Below are positions 997 through 38,632 of a stretch of 64,000 nt of DNA, piece by piece (positions within the stretch are counted from its first letter, which is position 1; the number at the start of each line of letters is the position of its first letter). Origin of the DNA: Acholoe squamosa. Its lineage: Eukaryota; Annelida; Polychaeta; Phyllodocida; Polynoidae. A model generated the notes under the pieces. It worked only from the letters and a program-made list of their open reading frames with translations, did no database searches and had not been told where the DNA came from. Made by a program: the position numbers and the translations under genes. The stretch spans positions 40,365,250 through 40,429,249 of the forward strand of contig OX439051.1 in the NCBI GenBank assembly GCA_949317995.1. The letters run 5' to 3'.

Positions 997-997
997 T

Positions 998-2344
998 TGT
1001 CATACTCGTGATTGGCATGATCAAGTTGTCATATGAGAAATATCATAAGACTAGTGGTATATAGTGTAAATACATCAGGCTCATATAAATAGAGTTATTT
1101 CCAGTTGTCACTGGTTTATTCAGCTTTAGGCAACATGTAAGAAATATCAATCATACAGTAGTTAGTATGTAGGTAATTTGTACATACAGTAAACATACAG
1201 TAATTTATAAAGTACAATGTTCAGTTCCACTCCACCTGTGAGGTAATAATAATACAATGTCCAGCATAGTTCTAGGTGGGTTCCCACACCTAGCTCCTGA
1301 CCTGCTGTTTAGAGGAATAATGTAATAATGAATAACTTTACCCTCTGGTGGAAGTCTTGAAGAAGATAGCCCCTGGCCACTAATGATAGAAAACCAATGC
1401 CTGTCTAGCATAGTTTCACCATAGTGCAGTGGTATAGCAGGTAGCAGGAGATGACTGGAGATGTTACCTCTAGAGCGGTTCTTGGTGATCTGTCTTCCTG
1501 GAGGTGCAGACAGGCTATTTGTAGCAAATCTTGGAAAAGCACCTCCAGACTGACTGGAGCCAGCAGCATCTGCCTAACTCTACAATTGTTTGAGGGGACT
1601 CTTTCAAGTGTCACAGGGGGACAAAGGACCCCCATGGACGCCGCTATGCCCCCCATTGTCTTGGTCGGTTCTGCATCTTTAGACCCTCATATCTCGGTCG
1701 TTTATGCGTTTATAACCGCCATTTTGGGCATGCGCGGAGTTGAATATGCCAAGTTTATATTGCCCGCTGGATAGGCGCGTAATTCGCGCCGGTTTGTCTG
1801 TAGTGCACTTGGAGCTCCTTTCAGTCTCTATGGCATAACTTCCTTAATAATGGGAGTACCGCCTTGATCTTGGGCTCATTTTGACCGTCTAATTATGGGC
1901 TTTCCATAAATGCTTTGATATTTGACCTAGCTTGCTCAGGAGCGACGCTAGAGCGACCGGAAGGTTATGGCGTCGTGCTTATGTAACCCATTGTTCAGTC
2001 CTTAGAGTGCTCAGACACTCATGACGGCGTCAGCGGTGCTCAGGCACCCGTGACGGCCGGTTGCATTCACTTACAAGTTATTAATTTGTGCATTGAACCA
2101 TGAGGTCGCACACTGAGACCCTCATTTTTATTATATTGTGCAGTGAACCATTAGGTCGGAGCCTTTGATGTCAGAGAGAGTGTTTGTAACTGACCTGGCT
2201 GGTGTGCAGTGGGGCATGAACGCTCTTATACAAAGTTTGAGCGCTCTTATAGCTCTTAGAACCAACCCATGTATTAATTTCATAGATATCCTTTGATTAA
2301 TACAAAATATGTTACAATTTATGGAATAGTAAAATGGTATATCA
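998..2344 (-). repeat. 3' LTR of the Gypsy-like element
   Basis: Matches 14360-15706 at a constant offset of 13,362 with no net indel. On the minus strand it starts TGATATACC and ends GTATGACA. The short frames inside it occur in both LTRs and are not supported as genes. Confidence 0.95.
1115..1120 (-). terminator. Polyadenylation signal AATAAA in the 3' LTR
   Basis: The plus strand reads TTTATT, giving AATAAA in CTGAATAAACC on the element strand. The same signal is at 14478-14483 in the 5' LTR. It is the likely 3'-end signal of the full-length transcript. Confidence 0.6.
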
Positions 2345-2350
2345 TAGAAT

Positions 2351-2365
2351 ACTCCCTCTCCCCCG
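2351..2365 (-). other. Polypurine tract (plus-strand primer site)
   Basis: The minus strand reads CGGGGGAGAGGGAGT, ending a few bases before the 3' LTR. This is the expected position for the primer of second-strand DNA synthesis. It also shows that everything between env and 2351 is internal to the element. Confidence 0.75.
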
Positions 2366-2639
2366 AAAGAATGCGAAACTCCGTCATTTCGCCGAGGGAA
2401 TGTACAATTTATACAATTTTTACCTTATTTTGGAGTTATATACTGTTTTGTAAGAGGATTTGAAGTGATGGGGAGTGCTTCAAATGCAATTTTTGTGGTA
2501 GGGCTTTGTCAGTATAAACAATTTTCTCCTGGGTATAAGTACATTTCCGAGTTTCTATATCTTACCATACCTGAGCTTTTTGCTTATGTGACATCAATAT
2601 TGGGTACAATTTCCCATTTTTATGTACAACATACAATTT

Positions 2640-3170
2640 GGCAAATAGTGTGCAATTTTGGCATTCAATATTCAATTTAGCGTGCAAATTGAACATAAAT
2701 GACAATTTCAGTGTGCAAATTTACAATTTCGCGTGTAATTGCGTTCAATTGACAATTTCAGTATGCAAATATATAATTTTTGCGTACATTTGGCAATTTG
2801 AGTGTGCAAATATATAATTTTCGCGTATATTTGGCAATTTTAGTGTGCAAATATATAATTTTCGCGTATATTTGGCAATTTTAGTGTGCAAATATATAAT
2901 TTTGCGTACATTTGGCAATTTTAGTGTGCAAATATATAATTTCGCGTGCATTTGGCAATTTTAGTGTGCAAATATATAATTTCGCGTGCATTTGGCAATT
3001 TTAGTATGCAAATATATAATTTCGCGTGTATTTGGCAATTTTTGGTGTACAAATATATAATTTTTGCGTACATTTCACAGTTTTAGTATGCCAATATATA
3101 ATTTTGCGTTCAATTGATAGTTTCTGTATGTACATATATAATTTTGCGTACAGCTTGGATACACATAGAA
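2640..3170. repeat. AT-rich minisatellite, 40-41 bp period
   Basis: The unit contains TTTGGCAATTTTAGTGTGCA followed by an ATATATAATTTCGCGT-type segment. Unit starts are at about 2789, 2830, 2871, 2911, 2951, 2991 and 3031, with degenerate units on both sides. It lies inside the 3' non-coding region of the LTR element. Confidence 0.9.
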
Positions 3171-3224
3171 ATGTTGATTTTCTAAAAATCTGACTTCAGT
3201 GTATGAATTGGGTACAGACATACA

Positions 3225-3600
3225 GTATAATGTGCAACATATAATTCAAATGTAAATTGGATACAACTTACAATCTAGTGTGCAAACATGCAATCTTTGT
3301 GTGCAAAATTGGGTACAAGTGTACAATCCGGTGTGCAAACATACAATTTTAGTGTGCAAATTGGGTACAAGCGTACAATCTGGTGTGCAAACATACAATT
3401 TTAGTGTGCAAATTGGGTACAAGCGTACAATCTGGTGTGCAAATATACAGTTTTAGTGTGCAAATTGGGTACGAGCGTACAATCTGGTGTGCAAACATAC
3501 AATTTTAGTGTGCAAATTGGGTACAAGCGTACAATCTGGTGTGCAAACATACAATTTTGTGTGCAAATTGGGTACAAACGTACAATCTAGATTACACTAT
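3225..3600. repeat. AT-rich minisatellite, 52 bp period
   Basis: The unit contains TTGGGTACAAGCGTACAATC and GTGTGCAAACATACAATTTT. Starts at 3361, 3413, 3465 and 3517 give an exact 52-bp period. It shares the words GTGTGCAAA and ACAATTT with the 40-41-bp array next to it, so the two probably arose from related sequence. Confidence 0.9.
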
Positions 3601-4341
3601 TCAATTTATGGGATTTGAGACAAATTTTTCCGAGGGCCGGAAAAACAAAGTACTTCATGTACAATAGGCTTGTTTGTCTCTGAGTTACTCATTGATTTTG
3701 CTATATGGGTGTATTAATTGGCAATTTCGGCAGTGGGCCGCTGCTTAATTGACTTTTCCCCTAGCCTTTTGAGTATGTGTCCCTGAAAGAGAATTATTTG
3801 GTGAGTATCTTAAGTAAACATGTTTTATGTCAACCATTTTCTCAAAAAATTTTTTTTTTTTTTTTTTTTCATTCATTTTTCCAACAATTTACTTGGATAC
3901 CTAAAGTGTGTTACTTTAAGTAAACCTTGGCATAGTATACAAGTGCTAGTGGGTACAAAAACTGTCTTAGTTATCTACCTGCATTCATGTATATTAATGT
4001 TAGATTTGTACAATTTTACAATTTGTAATTTGCACTTTCGCAATTTTGCGCGTATATGCGCGCATTAATCATCGGTTTTGTGAGAATACCATAGATTTTC
4101 ATATTATACATCAACAAGTGGCTGTGTATATAATTTTTTTTTTTTTTTTTTTTTCTAATACTTTGATAATTTCATTGACCGTGGAGGTGTGTCAGGAGTG
4201 AGATGTGAGTCTCCTCCCTGGTGTGCTCATGCAGTGGTGGCACTTGAGGTGTTAGGTGCCAGATTCTGGCATGTGTCTGTGGCAGTGCCTAGCTTGGTGT
4301 CAGTGGACAGTTCAGGGTGGGGGGGGGTGTGTGTGTGTCCA
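3601..4341. other. Non-coding 3' region with two long T tracts
   Basis: T tracts at about 3850-3869 and 4135-4154 (A tracts on the element strand) break otherwise mixed sequence. From about 4180 the composition shifts to G/T-rich, leading into the antisense gene. No element-strand reading frame is seen. Confidence 0.6.
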
Positions 4342-4379
4342 TTTAAGGAGTGTGTGGCTGGTATTGGAGTATCAGTTCC
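4342..4379 (+). promoter_or_regulatory. Candidate core promoter of the antisense gene (TATA-like + Inr)
   Basis: TTTAAGG at 4342-4348 is followed by TCAGTT at 4372-4377, a match to the metazoan initiator. If A4374 is +1, the TATA-like box is at -32 to -26, the canonical distance. The start codon at 4406 would then follow a 32-nt leader. Each motif is weak alone; the combined spacing is what makes it worth noting. No transcript evidence is available. Confidence 0.4.
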
Positions 4380-4405
4380 TCTCTGGAAGTCACTGCTGTA
4401 GTACC

Positions 4406-4885
4406 ATGGCCCATCTACAAGCTCTCTTTGCTCTGCCTGTCCCCCAGGTGATGGAGGTGGGGAGTCCAGTTAGGGCCCTGGTTGAGTCTAACCAGACCAT
4501 CCATTATGGGTACATAGTGAGTAATTTCAAGGAGATCATTGAGCATGGTGATGTGATGGTCTGTAATTACTCCTGCCATTATTTTCTGGGCTCAGCCTTG
4601 CGTCGGGGGGCCACTGTGGCCCTTCTGACTAGGGCCTTGGGTAATATGGGTTTCTGGCCCATGGATTATAACCTAGGGCCGCGGGAGCGAGTGCTATGGG
4701 ATTATCTGTTGGCGGCATCCCTCCTCGATCTTGCGGCATCCGGGAATCCATCCACGGCTGCCGAGTATGGACTGGGGATGCTGGAGGCCCGGCTCGCTGA
4801 GTGGGAGCAGGATCACGGCCATATGTATGGCTCGGACTCGGCCCCGGACTCTCCCATTGATGTTGAACCCGAGGATCTGTGGTAG
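4406..4885 (+). CDS. Antisense accessory protein of the LTR element, 159 aa, unknown family
   Basis: This plus-strand ORF lies opposite to gag-pol-env, between env and the 3' LTR, and converges on env (3' ends 149 bp apart). I chose the ATG at 4406 because it sits in ACCATGG and follows the candidate TATA/Inr pair. The frame is open further up to an ATG at 4256, without comparable context. The sequence is clearly more GC-rich than its flanks. The protein starts MAHLQALF, has a Cys/His patch (CNYSCHYF) in the middle, a Leu/Ala-rich helix-like stretch (LLAASLLDLAA), and an acidic tail ending DVEPEDLW. It is acidic, has no signal peptide or membrane span, and does not look like a core histone by sequence, although its 3' flank is histone-type. 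No minus-strand frame overlaps it, so it is not a shadow of another gene. It could be a regulatory factor or a captured host gene; function is unknown. Confidence 0.6.
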   Translation: MAHLQALFALPVPQVMEVGSPVRALVESNQTIHYGYIVSNFKEIIEHGDVMVCNYSCHYFLGSALRRGATVALLTRALGNMGFWPMDYNLGPRERVLWDYLLAASLLDLAASGNPSTAAEYGLGMLEARLAEWEQDHGHMYGSDSAPDSPIDVEPEDLW

Positions 4886-4932
4886 GATCCCGACTGACTG
4901 AAACCTAGGGTGTACAAACCCGCCATCCCAAA

Positions 4933-4971
4933 GGCCCTTTTCAGGGCCGGCAAATTGTCCGAAAAGTTCTG
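4933..4971 (+). terminator. Replication-dependent histone-type 3'-end stem-loop with HDE-like element
   Basis: GGCCCTTTTCAGGGCC at 4933-4948 folds as a perfect 6-bp stem with a TTTC loop, matching the metazoan histone mRNA consensus GGYYYT-TTTC-ARRRCC. It is preceded by the typical CCCAAA. Downstream, GAAAAGTTCTG (4961-4971) resembles the histone downstream element that pairs with U7 snRNA, at normal spacing. The stem begins 47 nt after the stop of the antisense ORF, the usual distance in histone genes. In known genes SLBP binds the stem-loop and directs cleavage without polyadenylation in S phase. The reverse complement does not fit the consensus (its loop is GAAA), so the signal belongs to the plus strand. 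Confidence 0.75.
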
Positions 4972-5034: not shown

Positions 5035-7282
5035 CTAGGCTGTTTCCACAGTCACCGGGGAGGGCTGGTGGTTTAGAAAATTAGCAATAGTCTGCATGTT
5101 TGACCTTGCGGTCTCCTCCTGTTGTTCGTCAATAATTATATCTGTTGTATTTTCCAGTGCTGTCATGGTCACCGGGCTGGTGCCACAATCATTCTGGAGA
5201 AGCATGGAGTAGTACAGTCCTTTGTTTTTAAGGGCTGGTATAGTACTGAACCTAGTGCGCCAAGGTAGGTGTATCACCTGAGGGAGGTGATAAGCAAATT
5301 CTCCTCTCTGTGTTGTTATAACTGCTGGTCCATTCCAGGTAAATATAGCCTTAGGTAGTGGGAAGGTTTTAACCACTATATCCTTATAGGTAGGGGCAGC
5401 TGCTGATTTAATCTCATCAAATTCATGTGGTATTGGCCTCAAGGGTAGCGCGAAGTTTGAGTCTCCACAATATATTTTAAAATATATTGTGGGGTTTGTG
5501 CGCTTGGCCACATTTTTCTTGCCACAGTGTGTCTGTGCAAATTTCTTAAGGTACTTCATTATTCTGTAGGCTGAGTAGATGGTCAGGGTGAATAATATAG
5601 CAATTATCAGGGTGTGGGTTTCCTGAATTGTGAGGAAAGGGGTGTGGGTTTCCTCTGTAGGGGTTAGTTTGGTAGGATTCTTATCTGGGAGCAATTTGTG
5701 TAGGGGCAGCTCGGTGACTAGTCTGAATGCTTTGGCTGTAGGCAGGTAGGCTACAGTTCCTCCTAGTCTGTACAGTTTGAGTAGTATGTATACTATAAAA
5801 ATGTGAGCTGATATCCCTAGGATGAGTGCTAAGCTTTGGAAGATTGGATGCTCTGTAACTCGACGTAGGTATGATTCCTCGTAGCGCGTTTCCATTTCCT
5901 TATTAAGGTTGGAGGCATCTTTTAATACTGTTTTAGCAAAGGGCTCTAAATTTAGTTGAGTAATATCATCCATGATTGGATTTTCCTGTAGTTTTTCTAA
6001 GGTTCTAGAAAGGTTTACTACTGGGAAATTTGGAAGATTCTCTCTTTCATCTGGTTTGGTTTCAGAAATTTTGTTAAGTGCTGCCATGAATGGTAAATTA
6101 ATTGTCTTGAGAATGTAATGAAATGATAAGGTTGAGTTACAGGGCAACCTTGTGTTTGGAAGAGAAAATTCTCCTACACTGATCGTGCACCCACAGGGTA
6201 CACCTATGATTGAGTAGGACTGGGCCTTCCGAGTTTCAGACGTTTTACCATGGCAGTTGATAAAGTAATGGGGTTCATTAGTAGTGACCAGATACTCATC
6301 TTCAGAAATGGAAATAGCATGGGTGGTAGGTGCTTGCAGTGGTGAAACTGTAAACTTGCAATGTTCCTTAATCTGTTGAGCCTGGTTAGTAAAAATGGCT
6401 ACAGGGCATGTAGGCCTGTGTTTATAGATTCTACCATTTACATCTCTGCATACTTTTACTGTAGTACCTTCACATGCCTGCATATCTGCTGAGTCCAATT
6501 CGATGAATAATGATTCGTCGTAAGATACTGCTAGAAACTCAGTCGTGGTTTGTAATTTGGTGACTCCTCTGGTGGGGGTCTCCTGTGTGTCTATAGGCAT
6601 GGGTGATGTAATCATTTGGTACAGTTTGAAGGTTGAGGTGGTAGATTGAATTATAATGTCCAGATGAATATATATATGGTGAGCTGAGTAAGTGTATGAG
6701 GTCAGCTTCTGTGAATAATAGAAATCTAAGTCATTAATTGCGACTTGTGCTCCAGGGTGTGTAATCCTAAGTTTGTTATTAATGTCAACTAGGTATCTAG
6801 CGAGGTCTGAGGGTGGTACTATATCAGGGGTTAGGATCCCTGATGATAGCATCCTCAGGGCTGCATTTGTCCTTTGCAGTGATTGAACTGTATTCATTCT
6901 TGCTGCTATGATAATTAGTGCATCATTTAATACTTGCATTTTCTCCCTTTGAGTTTTCTCGTGCCTTGAATATGAATCAAGTGACCTGGACATGTTAGAG
7001 GCCCACAGGTTGACAGTGTCACCTATGGTGTTGATTGTGCTGTCCAGTACCTTCTTATCTTGGATGTATGCTTTAACAAACTTATCTTGTCTGTCTGTGA
7101 TCTTTTCAATGAGACTAGCTGCTTCCTGATCTTGTTTAGCAAATTTTCTTAGTATTTCATCTATGTTCTTGAGCTGTCCCATTACTTGGTTTACATCTTC
7201 TACTGTGGCTAGACCTAGCACACCGCGAAACAGGGGTGCTAGAAAAACCCAGTATGGCCTCTCTTTTGGCCTTGTCCAATGT
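5035..7282 (-). pseudogene. env: Envelope fusion-protein region, 3' part of frameshifted env
   Basis: The frame is open from 7282 to the stop at 5035. Its first 20-odd codons (YWVFLAPLF...) are hydrophobic and fusion-peptide-like. They are followed by a long predicted alpha-helical region rich in E, K, Q and N, a Cys-rich ectodomain, a membrane span near residue 467 of the 728-codon frame (ALILGISAHIFIVYILL), and a second hydrophobic span near residue 540 (LIIAILFTLTIYSAYRI). About 170 more residues follow. The layout fits insect errantivirus / baculovirus F-type class I fusion proteins, except that the second span and long tail are unusual. It is out of frame with the signal-peptide part, so this copy of env is broken. 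Assignment is from layout and position. Confidence 0.75.
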
Positions 7283-7660
7283 GTTTATGGGGTTGGATAG
7301 GAACAATTTGATGGAGGCTAATGTTTCATTTATCTCCTTGTCTGCAATTTCCAGCAAGGTGTCAAGCTCTTTGGCTTGTTGGATAATTTGACCAGAGGTA
7401 TGATCTTGTAGAGTAGGAGTGGTCAATTGGAGTATTCTATCCCTTATGGATCCTTGGGTAGCGGGTGCCCGAGGTATCTTGTAGGGGATAGCTAACAACA
7501 GTGTTGTGGTTGTATGTCCATTGACCAATGGTTGAGGGCTAGGTTTGAATACTACTCCTATGTTTTGTCTCACCACAGGTGTATAACCTGCAGTAAGTGG
7601 TTCTATAGTATATAATAACAGCATAGTAAGCAGTATGGGTGAAACTCTCAGTCTCCCCAT
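7157..7660 (-). pseudogene. env: Envelope, 5' part with signal peptide (frameshifted env)
   Basis: ATG at 7658-7660 lies in ACCATGG context and opens with a signal peptide (MGRLRVSPILLTMLLLYTIE). About 120 further residues include an NET glycosylation sequon and a basic DKAKRE sequence near the end, in the place where F-type proteins have a furin site. The frame then runs into unrelated sequence and stops at 7157. The other env frame is open from 7282, so the lesion lies in the 7157-7282 overlap, most likely close to the basic site. An indel in this copy or a sequencing error are both possible. Confidence 0.75.
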
Positions 7661-8619
7661 GGTGCTTGTGTAAAGCAAGTTTGCTGTTGTTAAAGTCTTG
7701 TCAAATTTGTAGTGATTTGGTGCTGGTAAAGTCTAAGTGTATGGTGTAACACTTTAAATGAAGTGGTTCAAACTGTACCTTTGCAAGATTGAGCTGTCTT
7801 GGCAATATGTCCGGTGAGTCTATAGAGATTGACCAGTAAATGGTGAGGTCAGGTTAAAGGTGAAGTAGGTGTGTTCTTTATCCTAGTGCAGTCTCTCCTA
7901 ATGGAGAAGTGGGCTGGCTAATTCCCAAGTGGGGTCCTGTAGACTTGAGTTCCAGACTGCAGCTGGATGAAGACTGATGGTGGGCTATGGTCCACAGTGC
8001 TTCTTATGTAGCCTACCCTACCCACATCCATTGTGGGCATGGTATTGTTTCTCTGGAGTCAGTGCACCTAATCTCCAGTGTCTGCAACTGTGGGGCTCTA
8101 TTGTATAATCTGTGTACTGGTAATTAGCTCCTCCTGTCATCCAGGACAGCCATTCATGACCGTCTAGACAGTTGTCTGAGTGTAGCTTATAAGGTCAATT
8201 GATCTCTATAGACTGCTGTGTTGGCATAGCGTGCTCTTTCATGTGGGGATTAGGCTTTAGACACTCCATTGTGTTACCCTTACTCTTCTTAGACTTCATG
8301 TCTGCTTTACTTGGGGGGTCCCAGTCTTTGACCCTTTCAGAGGCAATAACCTACTGATATATTTACAAATTTGATTGGCTTTATATACATATAAGTAATT
8401 CATTATCAGTCACACATGTCTTATGTGTGGATGAAGAGAATTTGTAATACATTTTGAAAATCTTATGTTCTTTTGGTATCTCAATCTTGTTTCTAACTTC
8501 TTGAAACTGCACCACACCTAGATGTCTTTCTTAGTATGTGGTGTGCAGGCCTAGGCTTGATAGGGCCTATGCCTGTGGTTTTTCTTGTAAGGGTGATATC
8601 ATTTTTGTTCCTTACAGTT
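7661..8619. other. Gap between pol and env, no gene seen
   Basis: About 0.96 kb with no convincing frame on either strand; the 64-codon frames near 8493-8730 lack support. In related elements env is expressed from a spliced RNA, so a splice acceptor may lie here, but I cannot identify it with confidence. Confidence 0.5.
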
Positions 8620-11600
8620 TTATCTGTAGTATTTGGCCTCATGTGGAATAAGCCTGTGTGCAAATTCATTGTTTCTGACAGCCACAACCTTTTTCAGTCT
8701 GTCTATGTGCACTGGTCTGGCCACCAATAGATTGGTGTCCAAGTTTTTGAGTTTGGCACTTGTCAAACTAGGTCTGTCTACTACAACATATGGTCCCATA
8801 AAAAGGGGTTGAAGTTTCTTACACTCTGTGTTGGTCAGGATTCTTGGTATGTTTAGGTACACCATGTCGGTGACCTTGATTTCCTGTGGTGTAAGTTTCT
8901 TATCATATCTATCCTTCCTTTCCTTTTGTAGCTTGGCGACCCTTTCTATAGCTTTCCTCCTAGAGGTATCTTGATTTGTTATCATGTTAGCTACATGGTC
9001 TGCTACGGTGGATATGTCTTCCTGTATTCCCAGCCCTAAGTCCATTGGGGTGGCTGGGTTTCTTCCATGGAGTAGGAAGAAAGGGGTGAATCCTGTGGTT
9101 TGGGATTCAGTGTTGTTTAATGCAAAGGTTATGGGTTCAATAAATGAATCCCAATTGTTTTGGTGCTTTGAGCAGAATGCTCTGAGCGCTGTGCCTATGC
9201 TAGCATTGAATCTCTCTACAAGCCCATTTGATTGTGGCCTGTATGGTGAGGAGAATTTATGTTTGATCTTGAGGTGTTTAGTTAACTTTGTGAACTTTGC
9301 ACCTGTATAACATGTCCCATTGTCTGTTTGAAGAGTGGCTGGTGTTCCATGATGACAAATTATATTCTTGTAGAACTCTGCTGCTGTTGTTTCAGCTTTT
9401 AAGTCAGTAGTAGCCCAAGCTGTTGCATATCTGGTAGCATAATCTATGCAGACCTGTATATGTTTGTTTCCCCTGGCAGTTGTGGGAAGTGGTCCCACCG
9501 CGTCTAGGTTTAGGAACTTCATTGGTGAAGTCATGTACTCTCTCACTGTCATTGGTGTTTTGTGTGAGTGTACTTGCCTTTTTGCTGTGAGGCATGTGTG
9601 GCAGGTGGAAACATATTTTGTTGTGTCTGCTAGCATAGACTTCCAATATACCCTAGGTCGGAGTGCTGACAGCATCCTACTTGAACCAAGATGGCCGCCA
9701 GTAGGTGAGTCATGGAAATACTGTAGTGTACTTGTTACCCATTGCTGTGGTATAACAATTTGAAGTGGTACAGTATTGGTTTTTCTCCAATTTATGGGGC
9801 ATATATGGACTATTGTACCATTTACCAAGGTGTATGTCTGGCCTTGGTTGATGATTCTGTTTCCTTGTGCTTTTGGTGCAGGCAAGGTCCCATCCTCAAG
9901 ATACTGTATGAGGGGCAATAGGTCCTTGTCTTTCCTTTGTTCCAAGCCAAGGTTTGTACCTGAGATGGATGTGTCGGGAATCTGATCCAGTAGTTGATTT
10001 ATATCTAGCACATGTTGTTTTATTCTGTCTCTTTCTTTTTCTTTTTCATCGACTATTGGCCTATCTTGTGCCTTTTGTTGGGGTGTGTCACTCTTGTTTT
10101 GGTGTGTAGGCTCCTTTGGAGGGCCTATTCTCGCCTTGGTGGGAGTGGCAACCTTTTTCTTTAAAGGCACAATTTGCTTTTTGTCATTCTTCTTTGTCTC
10201 AGAGTTCTTTGACTTAGTAGATGCAGTGTCTTTTGTGACATTTTTCCTGGCAGGTGGGGTTTTGGTAGGTTTGTTTCCTGTGACCTTTTTCTCATTTAGA
10301 ATAGTTTGTGATTGTGTGGGGGGTTTTGGTGTGCCCTCCTGAATCATTTCTCTAGTCTTTGAGCGTGTGGTCATAGGACACAAATGGTTTGATGTTTCCT
10401 CTCCCTGCATTGATTCAAAGAATCTGACTGATTTGGAAGTTGCTTGAGTAATAGCATATAGTGTGTCTTCTGAATCTTCATCATCTGAGTCAGGTGGGGT
10501 GAAGGGTGGTTCCTTTGGAGTTGCCTTCAGCATCTGATTGAGTGATGAGAATTCGATAGGCTCGAAGTCATTATCTGGAAAGAGTTGTGAGTATTCTCTC
10601 TCACAGTGGCAAAACACATAGTGTGTAGATTGCTTCAAGATACCCCTAATGGGTGTCTCTGGCCTTTCAATGGTGTTGGGTGGATCATCCCTTTTGAATG
10701 GTACTTTCTTTGTTACTTTTGCAAACTTGGTTCTACTGGCTGCTCTAACTCTCCTTGGTGGGGGTGGAGGGTTAGTCATGGGTCCAGAATCTGGGTATTC
10801 TCTTCTAGACATAGCATCTGGTGGTGTGTTATCATCACCTTTCACGTGTTGGATGGTGAATGAAAATTGTTGTATGTCTAGAGCCCATCTGGCCCATCTA
10901 TGTGTGAGTCCTGTATTGGTTAGTAGCGGGATTAGGGCTGCATGGTCTGTGTATAATTGGAAGTGTCTGGTCTCTAGATAGTGTCTGAAGTGTAATACTC
11001 CATACACTACTCCCAGTAGTTCTCTCTCTGTGGTATTGTAATTTCTCTCATGTTTGGAGAGGGTTCTACCTGCAAAGGCTACTGGTCTGAGCACTCCTTC
11101 ATTATCTCTCTGTGAGAGTACAGCTCCTAAACTCACATTGGAAGCATCAGTTGCCAAACTGAACTCTTTCTCATAGTTTGGATATCTGAGAAGAGCATTG
11201 GTACAGAGGGCATGCTTTAAAGTTTTGAAAGCATTATCTGCATCCTCTGTCCAGACAAATGCTTTGAGATGTGTCTGTAGATCATACAGTGGTCTAGCAA
11301 TTTGGGCATAACCTTTGATAAACTTTTTGAAGTATTGGCATAGGCCTGTGAAGGATCGGACATTTTTGACTGATTTTGGTGTTGGGAAGGTTTTGATTGA
11401 TTCCACCTTTGTGGGAGATGGTTGCAGTCCCTTGGGTGTGACTCTCATTCCCAAGAAGTCTATTCTGTCTATGAAGTATTCACATTTTGATTTCTTCAGT
11501 TTGAGTTTACCAACTCTTAAGCTGTTGAACACATCTTCCAGGTCATGGAAGTGTTGTTCGATTGATGGTGATAATACCAATATGTCATCTAGGTATGGTA

Positions 11601-13335
11601 GGGCACATTTGTATTTGAGTTTGTTCAGAATTAATGTGACTAGATGGCAGAATCCCGCAGGTGCGGTCTCTAAACCCATCGGCATCCTTTCATAGACATA
11701 TTTTTTGTCATTTGCTATGAATGCGGTTTTATGCTGATCCTCCTGTCTTATAGGAATTTGAAAAAATCCCTGTTGGGCATCTAGCTTACTGAATACTCTT
11801 GGTCTGAGTGACCCTATCATGTCTAGAGTGTCATCGGCCCGGGGTGTAGATAAGGCTTGATTTATCGTGTTTTGGTTCAAATAACGAAAATCTGTGACGA
11901 GCCTATGGCCTCCCGATGATTTTTGTACTAAAAAGGATCTGGAAGCCCAGGGGCCCTCAGCACATTCTCTCAGAATGCCCTGTTGTACTAGCCTTTCACA
12001 CTCTTCCCCTATTGCAGCCTGTTTTTCTGGTGTTTGTCTATATGGTAGGAAATGACATGGTACTGCCTCAGGTTTTACATGTATTGAGTGTGTATACAGG
12101 TGTGTGGCACCAATGTCTCCATCTTTTCCTACAAATATATCATCATACTTGGTCAGCAGTGATTCTAATCTGTCATGCTGACCTTTGGATGTGAGCACAG
12201 ATTTTGGTGGAACATTCTCTTCCAATTCTGGCTCGAGGTCATGTGCCTCACTATGTATAGCAGCTATTTCAGAGAGTCTGATTGAGTTGGGTTCAGGGTC
12301 AGCGTATGTGGACTCAGAGTCTGAGTCTGTGTCACTGAATTGAGTTACATCCTCAGGCCGTATGGCTGAGATGGATTGATCAGTGTGTGGGGTAGTGTCT
12401 GACACCTGTTGAGGTTTTTCTAAATCAGATTCCTTGACTTCCTGAAATAGAGCTATGATGGCACCCTTTTTGATTTTATGTGGGTGCCTGCTGGTGTTGA
12501 GTAACACTAGGGGATGTTTGTTATTTTCCCTGGGGGTTACTGCTGCCCTTTGAACTAGATATGGGGCATTGTTATTTCTTTGGAGGTTATCTACTACTCC
12601 AGTTTTGCCTTGCAGTGATTGAGTAGATGTGACTTTACCCAATACTGCAAGTTCAGAGAATGGAGGGATGGTAAAATCCCTCACTGCCCTAATGGGTTTG
12701 AGAATTTGTTCAGGATCAACATTAAATTCAATTTGAGATTTTGTAGTGCTTAAGAAATCTGTGCCGAGTACAACGGGCTGTGTGAGGTTGGATATTACAG
12801 CAAATTGGTATTGGAATCTGACACCTTGGATTCTAAAGTTCAGCATAGCTGAATGTCTAACATGACACACCGATCCATCTGCCAAGTGGATGTTGATTTT
12901 AGATTTCCTCAGTTGGATATGGAATCTCTTTTGGAGATCCATGAGGAATGATTGTCTGACACAGGTGATAGTAGCACCTGTATCAACCAAACATTGTACA
13001 TCTGAAACATCATATAGATTTGCATTGATACAGCCATTTTGAAGAAGTACAATAGAAAGCTTAGTACTCTCACCTGTATCCTTTGATGATGAATCTGGTG
13101 GGGTGATGTGTATCACTGATGGACGTCTCTGTCTGTTAGATGGTAGATTGGCACTAGCAATTGTCTCTGGTTGGATCTTTGTTAATCCTGATTGATTGTT
13201 TGTATTTGGGGTGTCACAGTGCACTGGCCCATCGGCACTGTGACATCCTAGTTTTCCTGGTTCTGTGGGGTGGTTGCGATGCTTGCGACCAGGAGCTTGG
13301 AGAGTTGATCCATCACTTGAGGTATTGTTTGGGGG
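8620..13335 (-). CDS. pol: Pol polyprotein: protease, reverse transcriptase, RNase H, integrase
   Basis: The frame is open from 13335 to the stop at 8620, about 1,570 codons and intact. Residue numbers count from the codon at 13224. Protease: LVDTGAT with Asp81, and the later VLGTDFL. Reverse transcriptase: LVTDFRYLNQ near 439 and the catalytic YLDD at 544-547 (DNA 11584-11595). RNase H: LATDAS then YTDHAAL, ending at about 805. Next is a charged, Lys/Pro/Thr-rich linker of roughly 270 residues. Integrase: zinc-binding HDSPTGGH...CHTC (about 1173-1207), core Asp in NLDAVGPLP (about 1240), QTDNGT (about 1302) and Glu in GLVERFN (about 1338). A GPYVVVDRP segment close to the end marks a GPY/F-type C-terminal domain. 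There is no ATG at the start. The frame overlaps gag's end and is in the -1 register, so it is probably made as a Gag-Pol fusion. Confidence 0.95.
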   Translation of the reverse strand, partial: PPNNTSSDGSTLQAPGRKHRNHPTEPGKLGCHSADGPVHCDTPNTNNQSGLTKIQPETIASANLPSNRQRRPSVIHITPPDSSSKDTGESTKLSIVLLQNGCINANLYDVSDVQCLVDTGATITCVRQSFLMDLQKRFHIQLRKSKINIHLADGSVCHVRHSAMLNFRIQGVRFQYQFAVISNLTQPVVLGTDFLSTTKSQIEFNVDPEQILKPIRAVRDFTIPPFSELAVLGKVTSTQSLQGKTGVVDNLQRNNNAPYLVQRAAVTPRENNKHPLVLLNTSRHPHKIKKGAIIALFQEVKESDLEKPQQVSDTTPHTDQSISAIRPEDVTQFSDTDSDSESTYADPEPNSIRLSEIAAIHSEAHDLEPELEENVPPKSVLTSKGQHDRLESLLTKYDDIFVGKDGDIGATHLYTHSIHVKPEAVPCHFLPYRQTPEKQAAIGEECERLVQQGILRECAEGPWASRSFLVQKSSGGHRLVTDFRYLNQNTINQALSTPRADDTLDMIGSLRPRVFSKLDAQQGFFQIPIRQEDQHKTAFIANDKKYVYERMPMGLETAPAGFCHLVTLILNKLKYKCALPYLDDILVLSPSIEQHFHDLEDVFNSLRVGKLKLKKSKCEYFIDRIDFLGMRVTPKGLQPSPTKVESIKTFPTPKSVKNVRSFTGLCQYFKKFIKGYAQIARPLYDLQTHLKAFVWTEDADNAFKTLKHALCTNALLRYPNYEKEFSLATDASNVSLGAVLSQRDNEGVLRPVAFAGRTLSKHERNYNTTERELLGVVYGVLHFRHYLETRHFQLYTDHAALIPLLTNTGLTHRWARWALDIQQFSFTIQHVKGDDNTPPDAMSRREYPDSGPMTNPPPPPRRVRAASRTKFAKVTKKVPFKRDDPPNTIERPETPIRGILKQSTHYVFCHCEREYSQLFPDNDFEPIEFSSLNQMLKATPKEPPFTPPDSDDEDSEDTLYAITQATSKSVRFFESMQGEETSNHLCPMTTRSKTREMIQEGTPKPPTQSQTILNEKKVTGNKPTKTPPARKNVTKDTASTKSKNSETKKNDKKQIVPLKKKVATPTKARIGPPKEPTHQNKSDTPQQKAQDRPIVDEKEKERDRIKQHVLDINQLLDQIPDTSISGTNLGLEQRKDKDLLPLIQYLEDGTLPAPKAQGNRIINQGQTYTLVNGTIVHICPINWRKTNTVPLQIVIPQQWVTSTLQYFHDSPTGGHLGSSRMLSALRPRVYWKSMLADTTKYVSTCHTCLTAKRQVHSHKTPMTVREYMTSPMKFLNLDAVGPLPTTARGNKHIQVCIDYATRYATAWATTDLKAETTAAEFYKNIICHHGTPATLQTDNGTCYTGAKFTKLTKHLKIKHKFSSPYRPQSNGLVERFNASIGTALRAFCSKHQNNWDSFIEPITFALNNTESQTTGFTPFFLLHGRNPATPMDLGLGIQEDISTVADHVANMITNQDTSRRKAIERVAKLQKERKDRYDKKLTPQEIKVTDMVYLNIPRILTNTECKKLQPLFMGPYVVVDRPSLTSAKLKNLDTNLLVARPVHIDRLKKVVAVRNNEFAHRLIPHEAKYYR
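13248..13257 (-). promoter_or_regulatory. Possible -1 frameshift site at the gag stop
   Basis: The minus strand reads GGAAAAC-TAG, where TAG is the gag stop and pol is open in the -1 register from 13335. The A-site codon AAC can re-pair as AAA, but the heptamer is not a perfect X-XXY-YYZ site. The overlap (13248-13335) is where any shift must happen. Confidence 0.25.
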
Positions 13336-14390
13336 TTACTGTGTTGGTTCCCCTGGTAGCCTCTTGTGTTAGGTTTGTGATCCTCCTGATGTGGGTTGAA
13401 ACCCTGGTTATATTGACCAGAGTTGCTGTATTGCCCAGAGTTATTTGAACCCTGGTTGCTGTAGGATCCAGAGTTGTTGGATCCCTGTTTGTTGTAGGCA
13501 CCATTGTTGTTATTGTAGGATCCACTGTTGTAGTTTCTATGTGGACTATGGCTTCTACTGTTGGATCCTTGATTATAGGATCCGGAGTTGTTTGAACCCT
13601 GGCTGTTGTTGTAGGAACCATTGTTGTTGTAGGATCCAGAGTCGTAGTTCCTATGTGGACTATGGCTCCTACTGTTGGATCCCTGATTATTATAGGATCT
13701 GCCATTACTTGGGGTTCTGTCTCTCCTATCACTGTATGAAGAGTTACCATTGTTGGAGTTGGAAGAGCTGTTGTCTTTCCTACTGTTGTGACCCCCCCGG
13801 TTGTTGCTGTTGCCCCCCCTACCTCTACCTCTATTGGATTGGTAGTTGGGGTCATAGTTATTTCCTCTATATCTACCGGTAGGGTCTTTGGATATAGCCT
13901 TAGCTTCCTGTTGCCTTACATTGGCACTAGACATTAGGTTAACATCTTCATCTGAACTAGTGGTGATTTCCTGGACCTTTTTCTTAGTAGGCTGTGGGTT
14001 AGACTCTGCATCCCTTGTTTTCCTAGATCTTTCTTGGGTCTCAACCTCTAAGGCTAGGTCTAGGGCTTGGTTAAAAGAGTCTATTTTCTTGTTCTCAAGA
14101 GCTACAGAGATCCAGGGCCTCATGCCTTGGATGAATGTTTTAAATAAGGTGTCGTCCTTTAGGCATTGGGCATTACACGCTTTTCTGAGATACATTGCAT
14201 AATCAGATACAGGTTCATCTATCTCTTGTGCACGGAGTGCAGTCCTGGAGATAATATTGTCTTGAGTAGCAAAATACTCTTTTAGTTCATGTACTACATT
14301 GGACCATGTCAACTTATCAGGTGTGGCACTTTCCTTGAAGGTTTCAAACCAAGCCACTTTGTCATACTCGTGATTGGCATGATCAAGTTG
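13248..14390 (-). CDS. gag: Gag, apparently N-terminally truncated, with RGG/Asn-Ser-Gly-rich tail
   Basis: The frame is open from 14390, inside the 5' LTR, to the TAG at 13248. No ATG occurs before the capsid-like region; the first alternative start is a GTG at 14357. The N-terminal third (DKVAWFETFKES..., then LTWSNVVHELKEYF and later PVSDYAMYLRKAC) fits the retrotransposon Gag capsid family. The C-terminal half has no CCHC zinc knuckle. Instead it has RGRGG and a long low-complexity region of Asn, Ser, Gly, Tyr, Gln and Arg, with an internal duplication containing SRSHSPHRNY. Family Gag proteins normally have about 100 or more residues before this capsid segment, so the 5' end seems to be missing, together with the primer binding site. 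Confidence 0.75.
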   Translation of the reverse strand, partial: QLDHANHEYDKVAWFETFKESATPDKLTWSNVVHELKEYFATQDNIISRTALRAQEIDEPVSDYAMYLRKACNAQCLKDDTLFKTFIQGMRPWISVALENKKIDSFNQALDLALEVETQERSRKTRDAESNPQPTKKKVQEITTSSDEDVNLMSSANVRQQEAKAISKDPTGRYRGNNYDPNYQSNRGRGRGGNSNNRGGHNSRKDNSSSNSNNGNSSYSDRRDRTPSNGRSYNNQGSNSRSHSPHRNYDSGSYNNNGSYNNSQGSNNSGSYNQGSNSRSHSPHRNYNSGSYNNNNGAYNKQGSNNSGSYSNQGSNNSGQYSNSGQYNQGFNPHQEDHKPNTRGYQGNQHSNPQTIPQVMDQLSKLLVASIATTPQNQEN

Positions 14391-15706
14391 TCATATGAGA
14401 AATATCATAAGACTAGTGGTATATAGTGTAAATACATCAGGCTCATATAAATAGAGTTATTTCCAGTTGTCACTGGTTTATTCAGCTTTAGGCAACATGT
14501 AAGAAATATCAATCATACAGTAGTTAGTATGTAGGTAATTTGTACATACAGTAAACAAACAGTAATTTATAAAGTACAATGTTCAGTTCCACTCCACCTG
14601 TGAGGTAATAATAATACAATGTCTAGCATAGTTCTAGGTGGGTTCCCACACCTAGCTCCTGACCTGCTGTTTAGAGGAATAATGTAATAATGAATAACTT
14701 TACCCTCTGGTGGAAGTCTTGAAGAAGATAGCCCCTGGCCACTAATGATAGAAAACCAATGCCTGTCTAGCATAGTTTCACCATAGTGCAGTGGTATAGC
14801 AGGTAGCAGGAGATGACTGGAGATGTTACCTCTAGAGCGGTTCTTGGTGATCTGTCTTCCTGGAGGTGCAGACAGGCTATTTGTAGCAAATCTTGGAAAA
14901 GCACCTCCAGACTGACTGGAGCCAGCAGCATCTGCCTAACTCTACAATTGTTTGAGGGGACTCTTTCAAGTGTCACAGGGGGACAAAGGACCCCCATGGA
15001 CGCCGCTATGCCCCCCATTGTCTTGGTCGGTTCTGCATCTTTAGACCCTCATATCTCGGTCGTTTATGCGTTTATAACCGCCATTTTGGGCATGCGCGGA
15101 GTTGAATATGCCAAGTTTATAATGCCCGCTGGATAGGCGCGTAATTTGCGCCAGTTTGTCTGTAGTGCATTCGGAGCTCCTTTCAGTCTCCATGGCATAA
15201 CTTCCTTAATAATGGGAGTTCCGCCTTGATCTTGGGCTCATTTTGACCGTCTAATTATGGGCTTTCCATAAATGCTTTGATATTTGACCTAGCTTGCTCA
15301 GGAGCGACGCTAGAGCGACCGGAAGGTTATGGCGTCGTGCTTATGTAACCCATTGTTCAGTCCTTAGAGTGCTCAGACACTCATGACGGCGTCAGCGGTG
15401 CTCAGGCACCCGTGACGGCCGGTTGCATTCACTTACAAGTTATTAATTTGTGCATTGAACCATGAGGTCGCACACTGAGACCCTCATTTTTATTATATTG
15501 TGCAGTGAACCATTAGGTCGGAGCCTTTGATGTCAGAGAGAGTGTTTGTAACTGACCTGGCTGGTGTGCAGTGGGGCATGAACGCTCTTATACAAAGTTT
15601 GAGCGCTCTTATAGCTCTTAGAACCAACCCATGTATTAATTTCATAGATATCCTTTGATTAATACAAAATATGTTACAATTTATGGAATAGTAAAATGGT
15701 ATATCA
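14360..15706 (-). repeat. 5' LTR of the Gypsy-like element
   Basis: This is the promoter-bearing LTR for gag-pol-env. About nine substitutions separate it from the 3' copy, and most fall in one short stretch (15124-15210 here). A minus-strand TATA-like site and an AATAAA lie close together near its inner end. That gives a long U3 (over 1.1 kb) with short R and U5. Confidence 0.95.
14565..14575 (-). promoter_or_regulatory. TATA-like box in the 5' LTR
   Basis: The minus strand reads TTTATAAATTACTG here, about 90 bp upstream of the AATAAA in the same LTR. That is the usual U3/R spacing. The transcription start itself is not determined. Confidence 0.45.
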
Positions 15707-16060
15707 TAAAATCATGCAAATAAGCGTATAGGTGCTTGAGATTGAAGCTACATCCCTGGGGCTCATTTCAATAAATCTTAAGTGAATGTATGACTAAAGT
15801 CATCAAGAAACTCATGATGAGTTATTACACACATTACATTATTTCTACTGTGTTCACAAGATTTCATCTTTAGGCAATTATCAGTCAAATTTCCTGAAAC
15901 TTGATTTGAATGTCACAGGAGAGTGATTGCGATTAAGATGTATTCAGACTGAATAAAATGCATCTCAGGCGTAGGGTTTAAACTCTGCTGCAGCTACTAT
16001 AGATTAGTACTACAACTGCCGTATTCCATGGGGGCATGGAATACAATATGCTTGTATTCC
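15707..16060 (+). repeat. Dispersed repeat, copy A (split by the LTR element)
   Basis: This right part joins with 975-996 on the other side of the LTR element to rebuild one copy of a repeat that is uninterrupted at 41001-41545. Shared words include ACATCCCTGG, TTTCATCTTTAGG, CAGGAGAG and TATTCAGA. No coding capacity is seen. Confidence 0.75.
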
Positions 16061-17111: not shown

Positions 17112-17183
17112 GGGGAAGTAGCTCAGGGGTAGAGCTTCCGCTTCGAAGTTGGAGGGTCCCAGGTTCAAGTCCTGGTTTCTCCA
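17112..17183 (+). tRNA. tRNA-like Pol III unit 1 (CGA-type anticodon loop; tRNA or SINE head)
   Basis: A 72-nt cloverleaf: acceptor GGGGAAG/TTTCTCC, D arm GCTC-AGGGGTA-GAGC, anticodon loop TTCGAAG (nominal CGA), T arm CCAGG-TTCAAGT-CCTGG. A box TAGCTCAGGGG and B box GGTTCAAGTCC match Pol III consensus, and a TTTT terminator follows 6 nt later. The anticodon stem has a mismatch next to the loop, and the variable loop is short, unlike a normal tRNA-Ser(CGA). It could be a diverged tRNA, a pseudogene or the head of a SINE. Confidence 0.6.
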
Positions 17184-17379: not shown

Positions 17380-17453
17380 GGGGAAGTAGCTCAGGGGTAG
17401 AGCTTCCGCTTCGAAGTTGGAGGGTCCCGGGTTCGAGTCCCGGTTTCTCCGTG
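17380..17453 (+). tRNA. tRNA-like Pol III unit 2, 268 bp downstream of unit 1
   Basis: Identical to unit 1 except in the T stem, which here is CCGGG-TTCGAGT-CCCGG, and at the discriminator base. The stem changes pair with one another (G-C versus A-T), so pairing is preserved in both copies. The same TGACATTTTCCGCTGACC sequence follows, including the TTTT terminator. About 11 bases before the unit are also shared, suggesting a duplicated transcription unit. Confidence 0.6.
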
Positions 17454-35931: not shown

Positions 35932-38632
35932 ACTGAACGAGGAGTTGCATGCTCAGCTTGCCCGTGCTCAGTCAAACGGGCCACCCCCCGCTGTAGCGCA
36001 CACGGAGGAGCGCGTTACACGGGACGGCGCTGAACCCACTGTAGCGCACACGGAGGAGCGCGTTGCAGTGGCTGCACCGGATGGGGAACCCACTGTAGCG
36101 CACACGGAGGAGCGCGTTGCAGTGGCTGCACCGGATGGGGAACCCACTGTAGCGCACACGGAGGAGCGCGTTGCAGTGGCTGCACCGGATGGGGAACCCA
36201 CTGTAGCGCACACAGAGGAGCGCGTTGCAGTGGCTGCACAGGACCAGGTGGATCCAGCTCGGCTGACGGCCCATGACAGGAGTGTGAAGGCTGTTTTTGA
36301 AGGGTTGGCCAACCTTCCTCCTAAGGACAAAGCCTCCATCATGAACAAGGTGCTTTCGCCTGTTGTTATCAAAGAACAGCGCATCACTATGACCTTGGCA
36401 AAGACCCTTGGCATGGACAGGCGAACCCTAACAAAAACCCCTTCAGACCAGCCATCTGCACGCATGGTGAACCAGGAGGCCAAGATAGAGAGAGTGCGGC
36501 AGTTCTTGTCAGACCCGGAGAACTCCGAAATGAGACCTGGTAAGAAAGACACTAAGACCTTCAACAAAGTGATGCACCAGCAAATGTACCTCAGGGAGTT
36601 TGTCCATGTGCTTCACAAGAGGTATGAGGCAACGCACCTTGACTTGCCAGTCTCCCAGTCTCTCTTCTATCGCATCCGTCAGAAACACCTCCCCTGGTTC
36701 ATCCCCGTGGATCTCCAAAGTACCGATCTGTGCCTTTGCCAGAAGCACCAGAATTTTGCACTCCGGCTTGCTGCCGTCAGTATCCCTTTCAAAGACGAGA
36801 TGTTCGTGACAATGACATCTGAGGATTTGGAACGGACTCTCCAGGAGAAAGCCACCGAGACTGTCAAGTATGAAGTGTGGAAGAATGTGGACTATGAGTA
36901 TGTGTCGACAGGCAAGGATGGAACGAAGAAAACAAATACCATCAAGAAGCTCCGCCCTTGTACAGAGACTGTATCTAAAGCGGACTTCATCAAGAAAACG
37001 AGATTGGAGTTCCTCACCATGGCTGCCCATGTCGACCGTGCTCACAACCAACACCGCATCGTACGTGAGCTGCGAGCGAGTATGTCGTCGCTGGAAGTTA
37101 CCATCCAGATGGACTTCGCTGAAAACTGGATGGTAACATACCCCGATGCCCCACAGAGTACATACTATGCGAAGGAGCCAGTGACCCTGCACCCTGCAGT
37201 CATCCACTACCGTGATGAGGACACTGGCGCCACAAACCACTACTCTGTGGCTCTGTGCACCGACGACCGGAAGCACGACTCTGGTGCCATCTTGGCGTTT
37301 CTACGCTGTCTGGCAGCATTCCTCCGGGAGAACCTGCCACACGTCAAGGTGGTCCACTATGCTTCCGACTCACCCTCCGGCCAGTATCGAAACATCTCGG
37401 TGTTCTCGATACTCGTACGCCACACTGAACTGTTTGACGGACTTCGGGCAACATGGACCTACTTCGAGGCGGGTCATGGAAAGGGTCCTTGTGATGGTGT
37501 TGGCGCTGCTGCAAAGCGTAACGCTGACAACATCGTCAAACGCAACAAGGAAGGACACCCCGTCATCAATAATGCGGAGGAGTTCGCGGCCGAAGGTAAC
37601 AAACTTGAAGGCCGCGTTCACTACATCCATGTCCCTCTGCAGGATGTCGCCTCAGCCCGCCTCACTCTCGGCTCAGTGGTAGCAGACAAACCAGTGAAGG
37701 GCACCTTGAGTGTCCACGCTGCCATGGTCAAGCAGGAAGGAAGGTCACTCGCTGTCCGTGACAAATCCTGTTTTGACCCGTGCTGCTGGGTTGACCTTAG
37801 GTCCATGACTGGCTGCTCCGGATGGATTGAGCACGAGCTGGATTTCACCAAGGACAAGAAGCCTCCCCCACCAAAGCAAACACGGCAGAAGAAAATGCGG
37901 CCTGCCAGTGTCCCTGCTGAGGTGGACGACGCGGATGCCAGCACTACTCCCCCACCACAGCAAGCCCTGGTTCAGATGAAAACGCGGCCTGCCAGGGCCC
38001 CTGCTGTGGCGGACAGCGACCCTGATTATGATCCTGTTGTGCGCACCACTGTCTGCAAGCGCACCAGGGACGGCTCACCAATCGTGGCACGCAAGCGCAA
38101 CCGAAGTGACCGGGTGCCAACTCCTGCCACGGCTGACAAGGAGAACGTCACCCCGTGTGCCGCACGAAAGCGTGCCGCGGAGCGAGTCGTCGCCGTCCCT
38201 ATCAACAAGCGAGCAGGACCGGATCTACCAACCTCCCCCCTAGGATTTGACAACAATGAACCCTTGGACAAAGAAAAAGCTCAGGTTCTATGGCAGGAAG
38301 AGTACAGCTATGGTGACCATGTCGCTGTGGCCTTCCTGCATGATTCTAATTCCAAGAAGGACACCTGGTACTTGGGGAAAGTGATATGTATGCATGACGT
38401 CGGATACGAGGTCAGCATGATGGTGCGACACGAGAAGGATCCTAATGCCTTCCATTGGCCGCGGGTGAAGAATGTCTTGACTTTGGACAATGATGACATC
38501 CTAGGAAGGGTACAGTATACCCCAAAGAGGTTTGGCACCTCATCACGCACTGTATCTTACCAGCTCGCAGGCCTCACCGTCACCATCGCCAACATGAAGG
38601 TCAAGAAGAAGCGAGATAACCTGACCTCATAA
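35932..38632 (+). CDS. Transposase gene, last and largest exon: DDE-like catalytic domain and C-terminal chromatin-reader-like domain
   Basis: About 900 codons, intact to the stop at 38632. Order: tandem VAHTEERV repeats; a helical region (AKTLGMDRRTLTKT may be a helix-turn-helix); a Cys-containing segment (DLCLCQKHQNF); then an RNase-H-fold-like core. The core has candidate acidic residues in QMDFAENW (Asp codon 37112), YASDSPSGQY (37367) and GHGKGPCDGVG (Asp codon 37493). The FEAGHGKGP...DG signature is one I associate with a broad group of uncharacterised animal transposase-like proteins. Next comes a basic linker (about 37850-38260). The C-terminal region (GDHVAVAFLHD, WYLGKVI, FHWPRVKNVL) looks like a small beta-barrel of SH3/Tudor type. 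The proposed splicing gives 1,280 residues in total. Transposase activity is inferred from the TIRs and target duplication around it. Confidence 0.8.
35984..36246 (+). repeat. 54-bp in-frame tandem repeat in the transposase exon
   Basis: The word GTAGCGCACACGGAGG starts at 35993, 36041, 36095, 36149 and 36203 (last copy one base different). Four units share an 18-residue EPTVAHTEERVAVAAPDG-type unit and the first is shorter. Near identity of the units points to recent expansion. Antisense frames here are by-products. Confidence 0.95.

Follow-up and report, generated by a model that had tools for sequence, protein, structure and literature searches.

A probable antisense accessory gene with a histone-type 3' end in an env-bearing Gypsy element of Acholoe squamosa

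The 64,000-nucleotide stretch of Acholoe squamosa DNA analysed here (called the window for simplicity) raises the question of what an open reading frame on the strand opposite gag, pol and env of an LTR element is doing in front of the kind of 3' end that, to our knowledge, is nearly confined to replication-dependent histone mRNAs. A first-pass annotation had described a 159-codon antisense ORF with a Kozak-type ATG and a stem-loop 47 nt past its stop, and had taken the two for a separate gene with a histone-type 3' end. Both were confirmed at the positions listed in Table 1, and the reading as a separate gene is supported by promoter-like motifs of its own and by the same arrangement in relatives. 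We consider it quite likely that the ORF is a functional antisense accessory gene of an env-bearing Gypsy element, with its own TATA/initiator promoter, an orphan protein product and a histone-type 3' end processed by SLBP and U7.

Anatomy of the provirus and of its antisense ORF

The minus strand of the window holds an env-bearing LTR element and the plus strand holds the antisense gene. Judged by the Pfam domain order of pol (PR-RT-RH-IN), the element appears to belong to Ty3/Gypsy. The gag-like ORF seems to have lost its start in the window copy. The env relatives P0001-P0003 show 57-61% identity; Baculo_F (PF12259) was matched by one of the four aligned env members and not by the 728-aa env piece of the window, which can be called Baculo_F-like by way of a relative. 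The viral contig collection contained no relative of env. From the env stop (5035) to the 3' LTR the element extends over 2.7 kb, composed of an AT-rich, repeat-containing part and a GC-rich part that carries the antisense gene. Elsewhere, the window contains an 895-codon ORF with short repeats at its start (35945-38632, plus strand), which may be a host gene or belong to a further mobile element, and two tRNA-Ser (CGA) genes on the plus strand (17112-17183 and 17380-17451, 268 nt from start to start).

Table 1. Features of the element and of the antisense gene, in window coordinates.
Feature	Position	Strand	Remarks
5' long terminal repeat (element's orientation)	14359-15712	-	1354 nt; 99.26% identity to 997-2350
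3' long terminal repeat	997-2350	-	1354 nt; paired with 14359-15712
Purine-rich stretch	~2352-2372		immediately internal to the 3' LTR
Gag-like ORF	13248-14357	-	abuts the LTR directly; presumed gag
pol: protease, reverse transcriptase, RNase H, integrase	8620-13224	-	Pfam PF13975, PF00078, PF17917/PF17919, PF17921, PF00665
env	5035-7678	-	the window copy has it as two ORFs in separate frames, 7157-7678 and 5035-7221
AT-rich region with tandem repeats	2609-4070	none	tandem repeats 2609-3588; 3590-4070 similar by eye
TATA-like box ATTTAAGG	4341-4348	+	antisense gene; by motif
Initiator-like TCAGTT	4372-4377	+	~30 nt downstream of the TATA-like box
Antisense ORF	4406-4885	+	159 codons; acidic orphan protein; purifying selection
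CCCAAA flank 5' of the stem-loop	4927-4932	+	end of the 47-nt 3' UTR
Histone-type stem-loop	4933-4948	+	stem GGCCCT/AGGGCC, loop TTTC; Rfam RF00032; kept in relatives
Histone-downstream-element-like GAAAAGTTCTG	4961-4971	+	core AAAAGTT at 4962-4968

The antisense ORF lies between env and the 3' LTR, has the start context ACCATGG and encodes a product of 159 aa with a pI of 4.6. The TATA-like box reads CATAAAAGG or CTATAAAAGG in other lineages. TATA-like and TCAGT motifs occur with unchanged spacing in the window, in the copies L046, L124 and L126 and in all 20 copies of the set L098-L117 described below; the scan returned none for L118, L121 and L038 and matched another site in L123 and L127. 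The length of the ORF is only mildly unusual: when the local region was simulated, 57 of 3000 Markov-1 and 95 of 3000 order-2 runs gave at least 159 codons. Its three-base periodicity exceeded that of all 3000 simulations, but elsewhere in the window 12 of 490 stretches attain it as well. What decides in favour of a gene is the evidence from its other copies.

The protein matched no Pfam family at E 1, including the TRP28 domain (PF04195), and its nine aligned relatives gave a single Pfam match, Rpn9_C at 0.08 in one of them. No relative was found in Pfam, PHROGs, NCBIfam, PDB, viral contigs or genome contigs, nor in a search of 5.8 billion proteins queried with the window protein and with a 10-sequence alignment, and the gene family is known from one genome. 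The earlier description of the product as acidic and not recognisable as a histone holds: a diverged histone was considered and rejected on the lack of a Pfam match, the pI and the presence of a single lysine.

The 3' end and its counterparts in host histone genes

The stem-loop GGCCCTTTTCAGGGCC comprises the 6-bp stem and 4-nt loop of the SLBP consensus together with the A-rich 5' flank, and the AAAAGTT core follows the stem after a 13-nt spacer. The env stop codon is 63 nt from the downstream element. Searched against all 4227 Rfam families over 64 kb, the window stem-loop scored 23.5 bits with the Histone3 model (E 0.038, or by division ~9e-6 for this single family), which is below the Histone3 cut-off of 34 bits; 34 subtelomeric copies lie just above it at 34.3. 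Markov-1 sequence simulated from the window, 39.2 Mb in all, contained no hairpin of the same consensus. The 19-mer AAAGGCCCTTTTCAGGGCC alone is not diagnostic, as it is contained in eight stretches of seven viral contigs (L001-L008). Four of these eight stretches lie 2-6 nt past the stop of a long ORF, some are then followed by T-rich DNA, and none reaches the Histone3 cut-off. Judged by this layout they may be phage intrinsic terminators; a likeness of this kind may account for the viral contig matches and was rejected for the window stem-loop. The viral stretch L008 also contains two hammerhead ribozyme matches.

In the stretches of contig C6 that were read, host core histone genes have the stem-loops GGCCCTCTACAGGGCC or GGCCCTTTACAGGGCC, and host H1 genes have GGTCCTTCTCAGGACC and its relatives. 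AAAAGTT follows the stem at 12-14 nt in seven of eight host histone loci with a stem-loop (12 nt in L093, L094 and L096, 13 nt in L040, L119 and L120, 14 nt in L037), which brackets the 13 nt of the element; no AAAAGTT was found behind L095, and no stem-loop was seen in L097. The window gene thus resembles host replication-dependent histone genes in its stem-loop, its AAAAGTT spacing and its short intronless layout, and differs from them in its acidic non-histone product and in being carried by a retroelement. Among the host loci, the core histone genes form a tandem array (C6:82684380-82769134) with a unit of ~4884 bp, and the H1 genes L037, L119 and L120 have two or three stem-loops in series.

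Being a palindrome, the hairpin can form on the sense strand as well, where its loop in the window copy is GAAA, so that it could act in the sense RNA of the element, in packaging, dimerisation or stability, and resemble a histone end by coincidence. The sense loops, however, vary by lineage (GAAA, AAAA, TACA), and an AAAAGTT near the host spacing together with the A-rich 5' flank suits a reading in the antisense direction; we regard a role in the sense RNA as very improbable compared with a histone-type end of an antisense gene.

The pairing of the downstream region with U7 gave a mixed picture. The human U7 sequence pairs strongly with the flank as a whole, a level matched by 2 of 2000 shuffles; with the core, 604 of 2000 shuffles and 1123 of 4412 window 30-mers did as well. 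With four candidate host U7 sequences the window flank showed no advantage over shuffles, 182-364 of 500 of which paired equally well. The Rfam U7 model had no match in the host genome and none in control genomes either, so that an absence of U7 is not implied. A U7-like pattern matched the host genome 10 times, against nine times in a reversed control; six of the matches were read, four were tested for pairing and none stood out as the U7 of the host, so that a claim of U7 pairing was given up.

Copies, selection and separate histories of gene and env

The host genome searched comprises 1,481,437,319 bases in 63 contigs. The best 40 of 1399 candidates of a DNA search were all at least 99% identical over 566 nt, and the best 150 of 1671 candidates of a protein search were all at least 99% identical, with 148 of the 150 free of stops, a rate that applies to the best-scoring copies rather than to a random sample. 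Loss of the ORF or decay of the stem-loop, for which the first-pass annotation had proposed to inspect other copies, is rare in those read: among 28 near-identical copies (L009-L036, including that of the window) the stem-loop is identical in all 28 and the 159-codon ORF is present in 26, the exceptions being L023 with an early stop and L034 without the start string that was searched for. The intactness of the window copy itself was not counted as selection, its LTRs being too alike for decay to be expected.

The genome was also searched with the Rfam histone stem-loop alone, blind to the ORF; 75 of 291,945 candidates were scored and 53 matches were listed. Forty-one of these lie behind members of the antisense gene family, four behind histone H1 (L037, L040, L119, L120) and eight elsewhere (L039, L041, L042, L043, L044, L122, L125, L128). 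The family matches consist of 34 subtelomeric copies and seven divergent ones, of which L121, L123 and L124 have open frames and L038, L118, L126 and L127 have broken ones. Protein identity among the family members goes down to 48%. The lineage of the window is absent from the matches listed because its Rfam score is too low. Since a search blind to the ORF reaches relatives with the same ORF at 48-61% identity, the arrangement is old.

Three of the remaining loci with stem-loops contain non-histone ORFs (L043:1087-1410, plus strand; L128, at C5:51.79 Mb; L039:1646-2101, minus strand) of 108, 129 (stop to stop) and 152 aa, with the stem-loop 92, 37 and 101 nt past the stop, respectively. L043 and L128 share 27% identity over 85 aa, and judged by these ORFs the three may be another family of genes that have histone-type ends. 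L041, L044 and L122 belong to a dispersed repeat family (75-93% DNA identity) that has a histone-type stem-loop and no recognised ORF there.

The 34 subtelomeric matches all score the same and mostly lie within ~325 kb of contig ends. They were treated as one lineage, because in the six stretches read they prove to be pieces of a sister element embedded in a subtelomeric repeat. Twenty-two copies were cut out, all of which align with the window gene and keep the stem-loop (10 were displayed with their ORF), and the other 12 matches coincide by place with ORFs listed in the protein search described next, in which the subtelomeric ORF was the query. The subtelomeric ORFs are free of internal stops in 33 of 34 cases; one is truncated short and one has a deletion. 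The repeat itself, found near many contig ends (e.g. C3:25001-45000, L067 and L068), carries 1.3 kb of the sister element, antisense gene included, and a 550-aa ORF lies near this fragment in four of the six stretches read.

A protein search with the subtelomeric ORF returned, among the best 150 of 1672 candidates, 116 copies at 75-89% identity, mostly away from subtelomeres; the stops listed in them are probably for the most part the natural end of a shorter ORF. Twenty copies of this set, picked independently of the stem-loop, were read (L098-L117). Their ORFs run to the natural end in 16 of 20, with early stops in L098 and L099, a deletion in L107 and a late frameshift in L114. The stem-loop is exact in 18 of 20 (an extra loop T in L105, one changed base in L107), and AAAAGTT is in place in 16 of 20, displaced by a single base in L116 and altered in L101, L106 and L117.

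A chance hairpin behind a chance ORF could draw on the long ORFs that GC-rich sequence of this kind occasionally yields in simulation, and on the presence of the 19-mer in phage contigs, but it is refuted by the relatives, in which the same arrangement recurs across many lineages and the ORF bears the marks of purifying selection set out below; we give it next to no credence.

Between the window and L046, 103 of 158 residues are identical (dS 0.91, dN 0.22, dN/dS 0.24, pN/pS 0.36 with a bootstrap range of 0.26-0.51). When the 128 differences between the two were placed randomly, at most 95 identities were obtained in 3000 runs and 98 of the 3000 runs were without a stop. The comparison was extended to 18 ORFs (the window, L046, L121, L123, L124 and 13 of L098-L117; L099, L104, L107, L110, L111, L114 and L116 were left out). 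Of the resulting 153 pairs, 124 with dS of at least 0.1 gave dN/dS of 0.08-0.57 with a median of 0.22. The remainder consists of nine pairs with dS below 0.1 (dN/dS 0.11-1.12, the highest value being a single pair with dS 0.018), 19 saturated pairs and one pair without silent change. These codon comparisons show purifying selection on the antisense ORF, in line with the dN/dS below 1 that the first-pass annotation had named as a check.

Conservation of the 3' signal was assessed in 15 copies that DNA or protein searches had turned up (the window, L046, which was found both ways, and 13 of L098-L117). Summed over pairs, the stem agrees at 1260 of 1260 positions, the spacer at 1267 of 1365, AAAAGTT at 679 of 735 and fourfold sites of the ORF at 5612 of 7069. 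The stem is therefore held, its full agreement contrasting with that of the fourfold sites, although its sameness may be due in part to shared young history. In this set AAAAGTT does not exceed the spacer in conservation, which makes the support for a processed histone-type end slightly weaker, and the entire 3' region is less diverged than the silent sites of the ORF. Seven representatives that include old lineages gave 252 of 252 for the stem, 67 of 84 for the loop, 100 of 126 for the 5' flank, 193 of 273 for the spacer, 147 of 147 for AAAAGTT and 516 of 1019 for fourfold sites; the invariance of stem and AAAAGTT in these seven is partly a product of hit selection, since it was the stem-loop search that supplied L121, L123 and L124. 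Compensatory stem changes, the other proposed sign of selection, were not seen among the copies compared, in which the stem hardly varies. A near-invariant stem sequence is what is expected of an SLBP site.

It is possible that the element captured the 3' end of a histone gene. The antisense gene could then be real and its stem-loop a mere relic of the capture, the mRNA being ordinarily polyadenylated. The indifferent conservation of AAAAGTT in the 15 copies would fit such a relic, as would the three bases after the stem, which are GGC in the window lineage as against ACC or CCA in the host. A relic is harder to reconcile with a stem that stays unchanged while fourfold sites diverge, and with the recurrence of the whole arrangement in lineages whose silent sites are saturated, and we consider it unlikely, though less so than a function in the sense RNA. 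A 3' end still in use by the antisense gene is the reading we prefer.

The antisense gene is adjoined by env in all three divergent lineages examined. The env of these lineages (L129-L131) shows 86-93% protein identity and dS of 0.20-0.21, and the reading frame of its copies is itself broken up, L129 and L130 each containing one stop; the env tail in the subtelomeric fragment has a dS of 0.18. For the antisense gene, the same four copies have dS of 0.91-2.15 against the window, the upper values being near saturation, so that its synonymous divergence is about five- to tenfold above that of env in the same copies. Given the far lower env dS, gene and env differ in history. Judged by these divergences, the antisense gene or env has probably been swapped between element lineages, and either could be the mover.

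A possible link to the histone mRNA pathway and its precedents

In the mechanism we propose, the accessory gene between env and the 3' LTR would be driven by its own short TATA/initiator promoter and would give a transcript with a short leader followed by an ORF without introns that encodes an orphan protein of ~158 residues. Host SLBP and the U7 snRNP would cut this antisense transcript right after the stem, and the resulting mRNA would be non-polyadenylated and either made mainly in S phase or kept in oocytes and early embryos. As the cut would precede the end of env, the antisense RNA would stay unpaired with the env sequence of the genomic RNA. The element might gain in timing, in translation in oocytes and by an antisense transcript that ends short of env; that the protein is regulatory, in replication or in germ-line spread, is a guess. 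More broadly, and with less confidence than in the gene itself, we tentatively suggest that in a group of env-bearing Gypsy elements an accessory gene has become coupled to the histone mRNA pathway, with an antisense, SLBP/U7-processed message of S phase or the early embryo, a new protein family, exchange of the cassette between lineages and further non-histone genes of the host genome that end likewise; we would put this just short of an even case.

The closest elements by content are errantivirus-like Gypsy elements with a Baculo_F-type env, which share with the window element pol and, by its relatives, an F-type env. We know of no antisense gene with a histone-type end in such elements, and none was found in a literature search. 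Nor did that search, which lay mostly outside subscription papers, turn up any retroelement with a histone-type 3' end, in agreement with the first-pass annotation. Antisense genes of complex retroviruses include HBZ of HTLV-1 and APH-2 of HTLV-2. The HBZ promoter is in the 3' LTR, and HBZ RNA is spliced and ordinarily ended. The window gene resembles HBZ and APH-2 in encoding an accessory protein on the antisense strand of the provirus; unlike HBZ, it has internal promoter-like motifs, is intronless and carries a histone-type 3' end.

APH-2 is also named in the accessible part of an article on the plant elements Retand, Grande and RIRE2, in which the stretch from pol to the 3' LTR contains antisense ORFs whose function is given there as not known (PMC11963269). 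Antisense ORFs in this position are thus already known from plant Retand-type elements, as far as the accessible part of that article goes, and these elements share with the window element a long region from pol to the LTR, often with tandem repeats (PMC11963269). In the same part of the article most of the plant ORFs are described with a TRP28 domain, which the window protein lacks, and the word 'polyadenylation' does not appear (PMC11963269). Set against the plant elements as described there, the window element is from an animal, bears an env, encodes another protein and has a histone-type 3' end. As far as we have seen, what is new is that an antisense accessory gene carried by an LTR element has a type of 3' end apparently unreported for such genes.

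Genome searches for histone-type stem-loops can recover mostly transposon genes, as they did here in 41 of the 53 matches listed, 34 of which represent one subtelomeric fragment. A retroelement gene family with a histone-type signal is present in lineages at ~50% protein identity. If the proposed explanation is true, a gene of a mobile element would be tied to the DNA-replication programme of the cell, and the element could keep step with the cell cycle and be translated in settings that use maternal histone-like messages.
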